Assembly: GCA_001799195.1 (NCBI GenBank)
Contig: MGSU01000303.1
Coordinates: 1-17,495 of the forward strand
DNA from: Deltaproteobacteria bacterium RIFOXYA12_FULL_61_11
GTDB lineage: Bacteria > Bdellovibrionota_F > JAHFAK01 > YA12-FULL-61-11
Length of the DNA: 17,495 nucleotides
Direction: 5' to 3'
Shown: piece by piece, positions 409-17,495 of the stretch
Layout: each line of letters begins with the position of its first letter
Numbering within the stretch: the first letter of the stretch is position 1
Position numbers and translations under genes: made by a program
Notes under the pieces: model-generated
The model's database searches: none
What the model saw: only the letters and a program-made list of their open reading frames with translations
Told to the model about the DNA's origin: nothing

Positions 409-729
409 GATTCTCCAACCTAGACCGTTACAGTTCACCATGATCTAAGACATTCTTTTCTATCATATTTGCAGGATATCGCCTTGTTGCCCATCGCTTT
501 CTGCCTATATTTCAAGAATATTGTCTCATTTGTTAAAACCCATTTAAATGATAGTTTCTACTTATATAAGTATATCGATAGCGATTTGTGACTTTTTCAG
601 TTTTGAATACTTAATAAATTTGACTTTTTATTATTAACGTAATAATGTATACGACATATTAAATAAGTTATTAACATATAAACATGATCTACTAATATAT
701 ATTTATATATATTTATTATTGGAGGCACT
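409..729. other. AT-rich non-coding region before dnaN; possible part of the replication origin
   Basis: No credible gene is visible here. A+T rises steeply from about 430 and the last 30 bases before the dnaN ribosome site are almost entirely A and T (about 694-720), like a DNA-unwinding element. Two copies of TTATTAAC occur at 631-638 and 668-675; the second, TTATTAACA, differs by one base from the DnaA-box consensus TTATNCACA. No exact DnaA box was found on either strand. Short palindromes lie at 541-550 (CATTTAAATG) and 561-570 (CTTATATAAG). The position beside dnaN and near parS supports an origin, but dnaA is not in the window, so this remains inference. Confidence 0.35.
620..648 (+). 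promoter_or_regulatory. Possible sigma-70-type promoter for dnaN-gyrB-gyrA
   Basis: TTGACT at 620-625 is one base from the -35 consensus. At a 17-base spacing lies TAATGT (643-648), a weak -10. In DNA this AT-rich chance matches are likely, so the call is tentative. It would give a leader of roughly 75 bases before the dnaN start. Confidence 0.25.
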
Positions 730-1863
730 ATGAAGGTTCGTTTTAGGAAAGATCAAATATTACAATTACTATCTGCAAACCTTGGAATACTAGAAAAGAA
801 AAATACTCAACCAATACTGAATTATTTATACTTTCAAGCAGATAAAAATGGTAAAGTAATTACAAAAGCAACGAATTATGATATTAGTTTACTATGTGAA
901 TATGAATACGATGTTATTGAAGAAGGTACAATACTATTACCATGTAAAAGTTTATACGAAATAGCAAAAGAGTTACCACAAGATGAGGACATAACAATAT
1001 GGACACAAGAAAATGATAGAATAAATATTGTTTGTGGAACAATATTTTTCAAAATTATTGGAATTGAATCAACACAGTTTCCATTATTCCCAGAATTTGA
1101 AGGAGAACATTTCAAAATATCTACAATAAAATTAAGAACAATGATAGATAAAGTATTGTTTGCTTCTTCTATTGATAACACAAGATATAATTTAAATGGT
1201 ATTTTTTTTGAAAGAATTAGAAAAAACGATTCCTATTTTTTAAGAATGGTTGCTACAGATGGTCATAGATTATCATTAGTTGATATTGTTTGCGATGATG
1301 ATAATAATATTGATGTAGGTAGAGGAATTATATTACAAAGGAAAGGTGTTATTGAATTAAGAAAATTACTTGATATCAATATTGATAATATAAATATTAT
1401 TATACAAAATAATCAAATGATGGCAAATATTGGTAATTCAATAATTTATATACGATTGGTAGATGGGGAATTTCCTGATTATGAAATGGTAATACCAAAA
1501 TTAAATGATAAAATGTTTCGTGTAAGAAAATCATTATTTCTTAACGCTATTAAAAGAGTATCAATATTACCAAATATTTCATTTGGAAATAAATCAAAAT
1601 CCATACAATTTAAGGTTACAAATGGAAAATTATTAATTTTTACATCACAACAAGAAACTGGTGAGGCAAAGGAGGAAATTAATATTGATTATTCTGGAAA
1701 TGAAATAATTGTTGGTTTCAATGGTAAATATATTATTGATATTTTGAATGCATGTTATGGTGAATGGATTATTGTGAAACTATCAGATCAATTAACAGCA
1801 GGTATAATACATGATGGTGACATGATAGATCATTTGAATGTAATTATGCCAATTCGTATATAA
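730..1863 (+). CDS. dnaN: DNA polymerase III subunit beta (sliding clamp)
   Basis: This is the beta clamp, which dimerises into a ring around DNA and tethers the replicative polymerase and repair factors. At 377 residues it is close to the usual 365-380. Recognisable landmarks are N-T-R-Y-N-L-N-G-I near residue 150, A-T-D-G-H-R-L at 175-181, G-E-F-P-D-Y at 246-251, and a C-terminal M-P-I-R-I corresponding to the M-P-M-R-L end that forms the client-binding pocket. GGAGG at 721-725 is well spaced before the ATG. It is the first gene of a tight row, 17 bases before gyrB. dnaA does not precede it within the window and recF is missing between it and gyrB. Composition is extremely AT-rich, with many Ile, Asn and Lys codons. 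Confidence 0.97.
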   Translation: MKVRFRKDQILQLLSANLGILEKKNTQPILNYLYFQADKNGKVITKATNYDISLLCEYEYDVIEEGTILLPCKSLYEIAKELPQDEDITIWTQENDRINIVCGTIFFKIIGIESTQFPLFPEFEGEHFKISTIKLRTMIDKVLFASSIDNTRYNLNGIFFERIRKNDSYFLRMVATDGHRLSLVDIVCDDDNNIDVGRGIILQRKGVIELRKLLDINIDNINIIIQNNQMMANIGNSIIYIRLVDGEFPDYEMVIPKLNDKMFRVRKSLFLNAIKRVSILPNISFGNKSKSIQFKVTNGKLLIFTSQQETGEAKEEINIDYSGNEIIVGFNGKYIIDILNACYGEWIIVKLSDQLTAGIIHDGDMIDHLNVIMPIRI

Positions 1864-1880
1864 TATCATATAGGTGACCT

Positions 1881-15726: not shown

Positions 15727-16197
15727 GTGCAACGTTTTCCCATGACCAAAGAAGGTTATATCAAGCTCAAGGCTGAGTTCGACCACCTCAAAGCAGTGGT
15801 GCGACCCCAGGTTATCAATGAGGTGGCGACTGCCAGAGCCCATGGAGACCTAAAAGAGAACGCCGAGTACCATGCAGCACGAGAGAAGCAGAGTTTTGTC
15901 GAAGGTCGTATCCAAGAACTCGAGGGAAAGCTCGGCGCAGCCGAGGTGATCGACCCCTCGACGCTCTCAACCGAACGGGTGGTGTTTGGGATGACCGTCG
16001 AAGTCCTTGACCTCGATGCCGATACCACCAAGACCTATCGTCTTGTCGGTGAAGATGAGTCCGACCTCCCTCAAGGCAAGATCAGCTATAAGACCCCCCT
16101 TGCCAAGGCTTTGATCGGAAAAGAAATCGACGACGAAGTCACCGTAAATACTCCCGGTGGCACGCGCACCCTGCAGATCCTGTCGATCACGAAGTGA
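15727..16197 (+). CDS. greA: Transcription elongation factor GreA
   Basis: GreA enters the RNA polymerase secondary channel and promotes cleavage of backtracked RNA. The coiled-coil tip motif [13 protein letters not shown] is present with its acidic Asp and Glu. The C-terminal FKBP-like domain ends with a [10 protein letters not shown] strand. The GTG at 15727 is chosen because GGAGG (15717-15721) sits 5 bases before it, and the resulting start M-Q-R-F-P-M-T aligns with M-Q-A-I-P-M-T of E. coli GreA; it gives 156 residues, the usual size. An ATG at 15709 lacks this support. The gene is divergent from UGPase across about 145 bases and converges with the SLBB gene, 16 bases apart. Confidence 0.95.
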
Positions 16198-16213
16198 AGA
16201 ACGACACTCTGGT

Positions 16214-17495
16214 TCAGCGGATGCCAGACACGGTGAAGATCACGCCGGCTGTGGTCGCGAGCTGGAAGAGAATGCTGGAGACGTCCTTGACCACGGTCAG
16301 GGTATTGAGGAAGGAGAAATCCTTCGGCACCAGGATGGTGTCGCCCGGATAGAGTTCCTGGTTGTAGAAGCGCCCGAAGATCACCCCGTCGTTGTTGCGT
16401 TGGCTGAGCACCGTGCCATCGGCGCGGACGATGAACAGGTTGCCTTCGTCGGCCTCGTCAGTAATACCCCCGACCTTGTCCAGGTAGTAGGTCACGTCCT
16501 CTCCCGGTTCGAAAATCACCGCGTTGGGGTTGAAGATCTCGCCGATGACCGCGACGTAATCCGGCCTCCTGGGAAGAGTAAGGTCGTCGCCGAGATTGAC
16601 GACGAGATTGTGCGAGCTGTCCTTGAATTCCTCCAAGGGGCAGAGCGCCAGAATGATGCGGCCGGTCACGCGGGACTCGAGCATCCGGCGCAGGACGGCC
16701 TCTTTCGCTGCGAGGTTCTGCTGGGCGATGTCGAGATCTTCCTTGTTGAGCACCATCTCCGAGAGCTTGGTCTGCTCGCGGACGAGGCTCTCTTGTTGGC
16801 GCAGGGAATATTCTGAGAGGCGCTTCTGCTGGAGTTCCCGGACCGATTCCCGAGTATAGACCGCGGCCGGGAGGTAGGCGAACTCGGAGAAGCCTCCGGC
16901 GCGGAGGATCACCTCGGCGAGGCGATCGCCCTTCGAGAACGAATACTCCCCCGGAAAACGGAACTCACCGTTGAGAGTAATGGTCATTTCCTCGTACCAA
17001 TTGGGAATGGTCCTCACGTACACCCGATCATAGGGCTCGAGAACGAGGTTGTGGGTTTCGTCGCCGGCGAGGGCTTTGCCGAGATTGAGCAGTAAGCGGC
17101 TTTGCTGGACCCCGTCTTGTTTTGGCTGCCATCGGATGATCTCGGCCTGCTCGAGGTAGGCGTTGCGCACTACATTCCCGGCGAGGAAGACGAGGTCGCG
17201 AAGGTGCATGTTTTTCTGCCAGGGGAAATTGCCCGGTCTTGCCACCCGGCCGTGGATGAGCACGGGTGTGGCCTCGCGGAAGTTCTCCATGTCGAAGAGC
17301 GTCACCTTGTCCTTGGGCTTGAGGAGCAGGTTGGCACTCTCGTCTCCGGCCAGGAGTTCCCGCAGGCGGAGGGGAATCAACTCCTGGTCGTGACGGTACT
17401 CGAAGCTGGTTCGGATGAGCTGGGCGTAGTCGAGATAGGCCGAAGGCAGGACATTGCCGGCGAGGTACAAGAGGTCCCGGAGGCGCAGGTTCTCG
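16214..17495 (-). CDS. Multi-SLBB polysaccharide export protein, 5' end outside the window
   Basis: The open frame enters from the right edge and shows about 427 residues of the C-terminal part. Numbering from the Met at 17470, there are repeated SLBB units, each with a L-R-D/E-L or L-A-E-V-I helix, A-G-N or A-G-G and an N-L-x-L-x-P-x-D turn: one cut by the edge, then near 90-160, near 180-215, and near 300-365. A charged Gln/Glu-rich coiled coil of about 70 residues (roughly 215-285) splits the third from the fourth. The end is hydrophobic (S-S-I-L-F-Q-L-A-T-T-A-G-V-I-F), probably a membrane anchor. SLBB proteins of the Wza class form or line the outer-membrane export channel for capsule or exopolysaccharide. 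The N-terminal export domain is not visible. G+C is the highest in the window. Confidence 0.88.
   Translation of the reverse strand, partial: ENLRLRDLLYLAGNVLPSAYLDYAQLIRTSFEYRHDQELIPLRLRELLAGDESANLLLKPKDKVTLFDMENFREATPVLIHGRVARPGNFPWQKNMHLRDLVFLAGNVVRNAYLEQAEIIRWQPKQDGVQQSRLLLNLGKALAGDETHNLVLEPYDRVYVRTIPNWYEEMTITLNGEFRFPGEYSFSKGDRLAEVILRAGGFSEFAYLPAAVYTRESVRELQQKRLSEYSLRQQESLVREQTKLSEMVLNKEDLDIAQQNLAAKEAVLRRMLESRVTGRIILALCPLEEFKDSSHNLVVNLGDDLTLPRRPDYVAVIGEIFNPNAVIFEPGEDVTYYLDKVGGITDEADEGNLFIVRADGTVLSQRNNDGVIFGRFYNQELYPGDTILVPKDFSFLNTLTVVKDVSSILFQLATTAGVIFTVSGIR

Follow-up and report, generated by a model that had tools for sequence, protein, structure and literature searches.

A graded AT-rich valley through dnaN, gyrB and gyrA beside the presumed replication origin of a GC-rich bacterial genome

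The first 17,495 bases of the 27,896-base scaffold C303 from the genome of Deltaproteobacteria bacterium RIFOXYA12_FULL_61_11 (contig MGSU01000303.1; the genome is designated here G000 and the whole stretch analysed, the window) begin in AT-rich DNA that encodes dnaN, gyrB and gyrA and end in DNA of the composition typical of the genome, which has about 60-61% G+C in the 0.88 Mb of other contigs sampled. The window probably covers one side of an AT-rich valley that has the replication origin at its centre and in which AT-directed substitution decays with distance, here over about 12 kb. Such a valley is unusual in sign, scale and amplitude for regional base-composition structure.

Base composition across the window

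Counted per 1 kb, the G+C content lies at 26-33% over 1-10 kb, then climbs through 35, 43, 44, 46, 50, 55 and 58 to 61%, and stays at 57-66% over the remaining 10 kb of the scaffold. The first-pass annotation of this DNA had described a steep rise from counts of short samples; the rise is confirmed, and it is far stronger at silent sites than those counts indicated. At fourfold degenerate sites (fourfold G+C) it extends from 6% in dnaN to 88% in the SLBB-domain gene, past which a plateau of 73-81% is reached. The 13 genes involved lie on both strands and are of mixed function, as had also been stated, and their fourfold G+C follows position closely (Spearman rho 0.985). The same direction of change is evident at first and second codon positions (GC1, GC2), in amino-acid composition and in the non-coding spacers. 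The features of the window are as follows.

1-408, no strand: repeated-element end at the contig start, labelled IS66 in the first-pass annotation, family not confirmed
431-729, no strand: AT-rich spacer ahead of dnaN (26% G+C), where the replication origin is presumed to lie
730-1863, plus strand: dnaN, 377 aa, intact, Pfam DNA_pol3_beta 1-3; fourfold G+C 6%, valley bottom; sole copy in the genome
1881-4280, plus strand: gyrB, 799 aa, intact, identified by Pfam; fourfold G+C 9%; sole copy in the genome
4283-6739, plus strand: gyrA, 818 aa, intact, identified by Pfam; fourfold G+C 13%; sole copy in the genome
6748-6763, no strand: parS centromere site TGTTTCACGTGAAACA, a perfect palindrome just downstream of gyrA
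6792-7169, plus strand: response regulator receiver protein; fourfold G+C 15%
7156-8112, minus strand: family 2 glycosyltransferase (GT2); fourfold G+C 19%
8147-9613, minus strand: polysaccharide flippase; fourfold G+C 17%
9610-11049, minus strand: O-antigen ligase-like protein (Wzy_C); fourfold G+C 19%; 4-base overlap with each neighbour
11046-12599, minus strand: FG-GAP repeat protein; fourfold G+C 38%, within the steep part
12737-12822, plus strand: tRNA-Leu (CAG)
12987-14048, plus strand: GAF-GGDEF protein; fourfold G+C 59%
14078-14449, plus strand: PilZ protein; fourfold G+C 56%
14469-15749, minus strand: UTP--glucose-1-phosphate uridylyltransferase family protein; fourfold G+C 62%
15709-16197, plus strand: greA; fourfold G+C 67%
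16214-17495, minus strand: SLBB-domain protein; fourfold G+C 88%, upper plateau; the gene enters a scaffold gap at the window end

The low values are exceptional for this genome. Among 609 open reading frames (ORFs) in the 0.88 Mb sampled elsewhere in G000, fourfold G+C has a median of 75%, with 40% at the 1st percentile and 19% as the lowest value, so that none of the seven left-hand genes of the window exceeds the lowest gene found elsewhere; no region comparable to the valley was found in these other contigs.

The shape of the rise was assessed by fitting models to the 13 genes from dnaN to the SLBB-domain gene and, separately, to these genes together with the plateau beyond them. For the 13 genes, a four-parameter sigmoid with its midpoint at 13.8 kb (Bayesian information criterion, BIC, 2233) beats free gene means (BIC 2275), and its log-likelihood is -1101 as compared with -1157 for a single step. 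When the plateau is included, the sigmoid (BIC 3524.7, midpoint 12.5 kb) ties with a four-block mosaic whose breaks were left free (BIC 3524.2), and a single step is about 98 units worse than the sigmoid (BIC 3623). The best mosaic places its breaks inside genes, at 10852, 13358 and 15942. A sharp step at a single point, which the first-pass annotation had named as grounds for giving up a gradient, is rejected in both fits; of the competing reading that it offered, two or three blocks or an assembly join, the single-step version fails and a mosaic, in this case of four blocks, holds level with the sigmoid. With the window taken alone, a graded change is the preferred reading and a fine mosaic a conceivable one. 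Inside genes, the pooled slopes are positive but weak (p = 0.047 for G+C at third codon positions, GC3; p = 0.012 from wzy to the SLBB-domain gene), and the window by itself is therefore no proof of smoothness at that scale. The GAF-GGDEF gene, in the steep part, does show fourfold G+C increasing along its length (likelihood-ratio 5.7).

At the left end of the scaffold, the first ~410 bases recur in the genome, as an 82% identical copy at G000:C53:16247-16647 and in partial form on contigs C300 and C118. AT-rich genes that lack a Pfam family occur no more than ~2 kb from the copies on C118 and C53.

Counterparts in other genomes and the position of the low point

An initial scan for relatives with gyrB alone gave no match. 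A scan for GyrB relatives, together with a survey of G+C in the vicinity of dnaN, brought out one further extreme case, locus L142 of genome G041, a 2.4-Mb Deltaproteobacteria metagenome-assembled genome of ~64% G+C, in which fourfold G+C is 22% in dnaN, 69% in gyrB and 94% in gyrA. Over the length of gyrB alone, silent sites go from 19 to 97% G+C (likelihood-ratio 109), and since this gradient is contained in one intact gene, a join is hard to invoke. The dnaA gene of G041 is located on a separate contig of ordinary composition (~64% G+C). A relative of G041, genome G048, has a two-sided valley around dnaN on a single 91-kb contig, where fourfold G+C descends from 46% to 2-8% and recovers to 45-56%, extending over ~3 kb on the left side and ~5 kb on the right; the slopes inside the flanking genes are opposite in sign (p = 2e-6 left, p = 0.005 right) and the fitted centre falls within dnaN. 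The G041/G048 lineage is unrelated to that of G000 and provides an independent case; its pattern is of the same kind as that of the window, but narrower.

Delta-like bacteria commonly have a shallow dip at dnaN. Among 18 further relatives, the mean shows such a dip within ~1 kb of dnaN, and no dip at dnaN was found in 19 Pseudomonadota loci. Overall, dnaN is lower than gyrB at 51 of 67 loci, and the difference between the two genes has a median of 10.6 points where dnaA is not nearby versus 1.9 points where it is, a comparison confounded by lineage.

Other departures in composition were observed in the course of this survey. Locus L124 (G000:C91:29636-49635) has a second dip at 14.8-17.9 kb, in which fourfold G+C falls to 46-33% and then jumps to 72-81%, and whose genes include an SRP54-type GTPase. 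In a Thermodesulfatator genome, locus L267 (G042:C39) has fourfold G+C of 24, 11 and 20% near dnaA (9753-14115). A step near gyrB was noted at locus L187. The AT-rich tail of the genome was considered as a source of further valleys and rejected, the ten low ORFs scanned having no Pfam family.

Within the window, the minimum lies at dnaN-gyrB, below the segment that runs from gyrA through the response regulator to GT2 (p = 0.006). Two origin-proximal features are present, the gene order dnaN-gyrB-gyrA and parS, and the parS site is the only one in the 4.64 Mb of G000 (at most one mismatch), as is expected near an origin. The relatives of G041 have eight DnaA boxes in nine spacers upstream of dnaN, as compared with 1.1 expected (0 of 300 shuffles), an enrichment that makes the spacer upstream of dnaN the likely origin. 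By eye, a conserved-looking element of the form AAAAGATTATGGTTATTAGGGTTGTTGATATGTTGAT recurs in the spacer preceding dnaN at loci L322, L318, L319, L323, L328 and L333, and may be part of the origin. The origin-centred placement of the valley is well supported by position, though not proven by skew.

Native, joined or acquired DNA

The intact dnaN, gyrB and gyrA genes of the window are the only copies in G000. Its GyrB is sister (support 99/97) to that of G001, a genome of the same class and the only other one of the phylum that was compared; the conflicting phylogeny of left-hand genes which the first-pass annotation had listed as contrary evidence was accordingly not seen for gyrB, which groups with its own phylum. 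As G001 has 36% G+C, compositional attraction of the unusual GyrB to it is possible. The flippase, wzy and FG-GAP genes form a run with 4-base overlaps, and this run spans the change in composition. Together, the intact sole copies, the GyrB tree, the sole parS and the overlapping run render a join or a foreign island unlikely. The dnaA gene of G000 lies away from dnaN, among unrelated neighbours on a contig of ~64% G+C (locus L067, G000:C65, 9252-10868).

Nevertheless, an artefact of assembly or binning, by which DNA of a low-G+C organism on the left was joined to a 61% G+C genome on the right, merits consideration in a draft genome of 342 contigs and 87% completeness whose scaffold begins in a repeat; the 36% G+C member of the phylum indicates that a low-G+C relative could exist, which would explain the GyrB tree as well, and the gyrA and dnaA trees leave the placement undecided. 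A join predicts a step, however, and a single step fits far worse than the sigmoid. The genes at 38-67% would call for at least two extra joins, the best breaks fall inside genes, the bin has no second, GC-rich dnaN, gyrB or gyrA, and in G048 the same valley has normal DNA on either side. We therefore consider a join quite improbable. An island of foreign low-G+C DNA that arrived with the left-hand repeat element, copies of which occur elsewhere in the genome, is very improbable: it would have displaced the only dnaN, gyrB, gyrA and parS of the genome, no native copies of the genes remain elsewhere, and GyrB falls with its own phylum and with no other lineage. Moreover, an island has edges, whereas a graded flank of 5 kb with breaks inside genes is observed.

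Two further readings concern what shapes or centres the low block. In one, an origin valley at dnaN-gyrB-gyrA is overlaid by polysaccharide genes (GT2, flippase, Wzy), an AT-rich cluster acquired horizontally that makes the gradient look longer than it is. Genes for polysaccharide polymerases and flippases are often AT-rich, the values are flat at 17-19% over 7.2-11 kb, and the Wzy_C gene of G048 (L317, 11076-12305) is AT-rich by itself (fourfold G+C 13% versus 29-52% around it, a narrow, separate dip 12 kb from dnaN), such that genes of this type could distort gradients. On the other hand, three other glycosyltransferase-like genes of G000, a small sample, have 72-76%, the values of the cluster extend the trend of gyrA, and the steep part is occupied by the FG-GAP, GGDEF and PilZ genes. 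Intrinsic AT-richness of polysaccharide genes was, on the evidence of those three genes, partly rejected; an overlay as a whole is unlikely, and it is possible that such genes add to the low values over 7-11 kb. In the other reading, the valley is centred on parS, with ParB spreading (or another bound protein) shielding the DNA from repair. The only parS of G000, at 6748, indeed lies inside the low zone, and ParB spreads on a scale of ~10 kb, but the minimum at dnaN shows that the low point is not at parS, the parS of G041 is situated in DNA of 53-66% G+C, and in G048 a deep valley exists although no parS occurs there at up to one mismatch. A valley centred on parS was rejected as scarcely credible.

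Several observations weigh against the interpretation of the window as one arm of an origin-centred valley. In the spacers of G000, G048 and G050, no match to the DnaA-box consensus TTATCCACA was found at up to one mismatch. The within-gene slope at fourfold sites of the window, pooled over genes, is not significant, and the gyrA and dnaA trees leave the placement of G000 unsettled. All of the deep-valley cases are draft assemblies; the left arm is absent from those of G000 and G041, the window holding the right arm alone, with the contig starting left of dnaN, and in two of the three deep cases contigs end right at dnaN. Finally, the substitutions are unpolarised, so that mutation, repair and reduced GC-favouring fixation are not told apart.

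Possible causes and significance of the valley

We envisage that the origin would be located in the spacer upstream of dnaN, or to the left of it. In its vicinity, AT-directed substitution would exceed whatever maintains the GC-rich genome elsewhere, and the excess would wane with distance, over ~12 kb here and over 1-12 kb across the cases. The most likely cause would be tied to initiation itself, through short-range unwinding, abortive or restarted forks, or re-synthesis near the origin, and this is the weakest step of the proposal. Initiation events of this kind would expose single strands, on which lesions that convert G/C to A/T might stay unrepaired mostly near the start point. In the low block the top strand carries a purine excess in genes of either orientation, in line with a replication-linked asymmetry; simple cytosine deamination on an exposed lagging-strand template would be expected to give an excess of T, which the block lacks.

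Mutation is AT-biased almost universally in bacteria, and from mutation data of Escherichia coli an equilibrium G+C of 0.32 is expected (PMC2936529). Fourfold G+C of 2-8% lies below this value, which suggests an additional AT-directed pressure beyond mere relaxation, bearing in mind that 0.32 is an E. coli value and may not fit these lineages. An alternative that keeps the origin-centred valley and concerns its cause only is that GC-biased gene conversion is locally reduced, or selection for G+C weaker, near the origin, and that the universal AT bias of mutation (PMC2936529) shows through. GC-biased conversion has been proposed for part of the within-genome variation in bacterial G+C (PMC4450053), and kilobase tract lengths would yield a kilobase scale. 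Against this stand the values of 2-8%, well under the 0.32 derived from E. coli (PMC2936529), and the lack of a known reason for recombination to vanish at dnaN; we judge it somewhat unlikely. As for the origin-centred gradient of mutation or repair that the first-pass annotation had raised, its centring is supported by the dnaN minimum, the rejection of a step, the GyrB tree and the G041 and G048 loci, and its attribution to mutation or repair goes beyond what these lines of evidence establish.

The valley resembles several known types of compositional structure, and differs from each. Like the unwinding element of known origins, a short AT-rich non-coding stretch, it lies at the origin upstream of dnaN and is rich in A+T, but unlike that element its bias reaches kilobases into intact essential genes and affects both silent sites and proteins. 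Vertebrate mitochondrial DNA has strand-asymmetric silent-site gradients from the origin, attributed to time spent single-stranded; the smooth silent-site change with position relative to the replication origin is shared, whereas here total G+C drops and the purine excess of the top strand holds for both gene orientations. A horizontally acquired low-G+C island would likewise form a low-G+C block beside a repeat element in a GC-rich genome, but the window contains core genes in sole copies, a GyrB that groups with its own phylum, and no sharp edge. Composition also depends on position relative to the origin in chromosome-scale structuring, for which a slight trend, with large regions near the origin GC-richer and termini AT-richer, is reported (Daubin and Perriere 2003, cited in PMC3091660). 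Compared with that account, the sign is reversed in the window, whose origin side is its AT-rich end rather than the GC-rich end by which chromosome-scale G+C3 structuring is recognised; the effect extends over ~1-12 kb, and its amplitude exceeds 70 points at fourfold sites. Our searches of the open-licence literature brought up no account of core genes at a bacterial origin being crossed by an AT valley on a kilobase scale; this speaks only weakly for novelty.

Taking the cases together, we tentatively propose, as a close call on which we stop just short of leaning, that in several deep lineages a process coupled to the origin takes silent sites down to 2-8% G+C and remodels the replication proteins encoded in that zone, with an effect that decays over 1-12 kb, its width and depth varying by lineage and perhaps peaking where dnaA has moved from the origin. 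In practical terms, composition-based binning and island finders would drop or misjudge the origin region of such genomes, together with dnaN, gyrB and gyrA. Base composition is usually seen as characteristic of the genome as a whole, with regional departures that are mild. Essential genes in which G+C collapses locally and by degrees around an origin would provide a natural chart of how a substitution process depends on position, and they separate two classes of explanation, namely extra AT-directed damage at initiation and loss of GC-favouring fixation.

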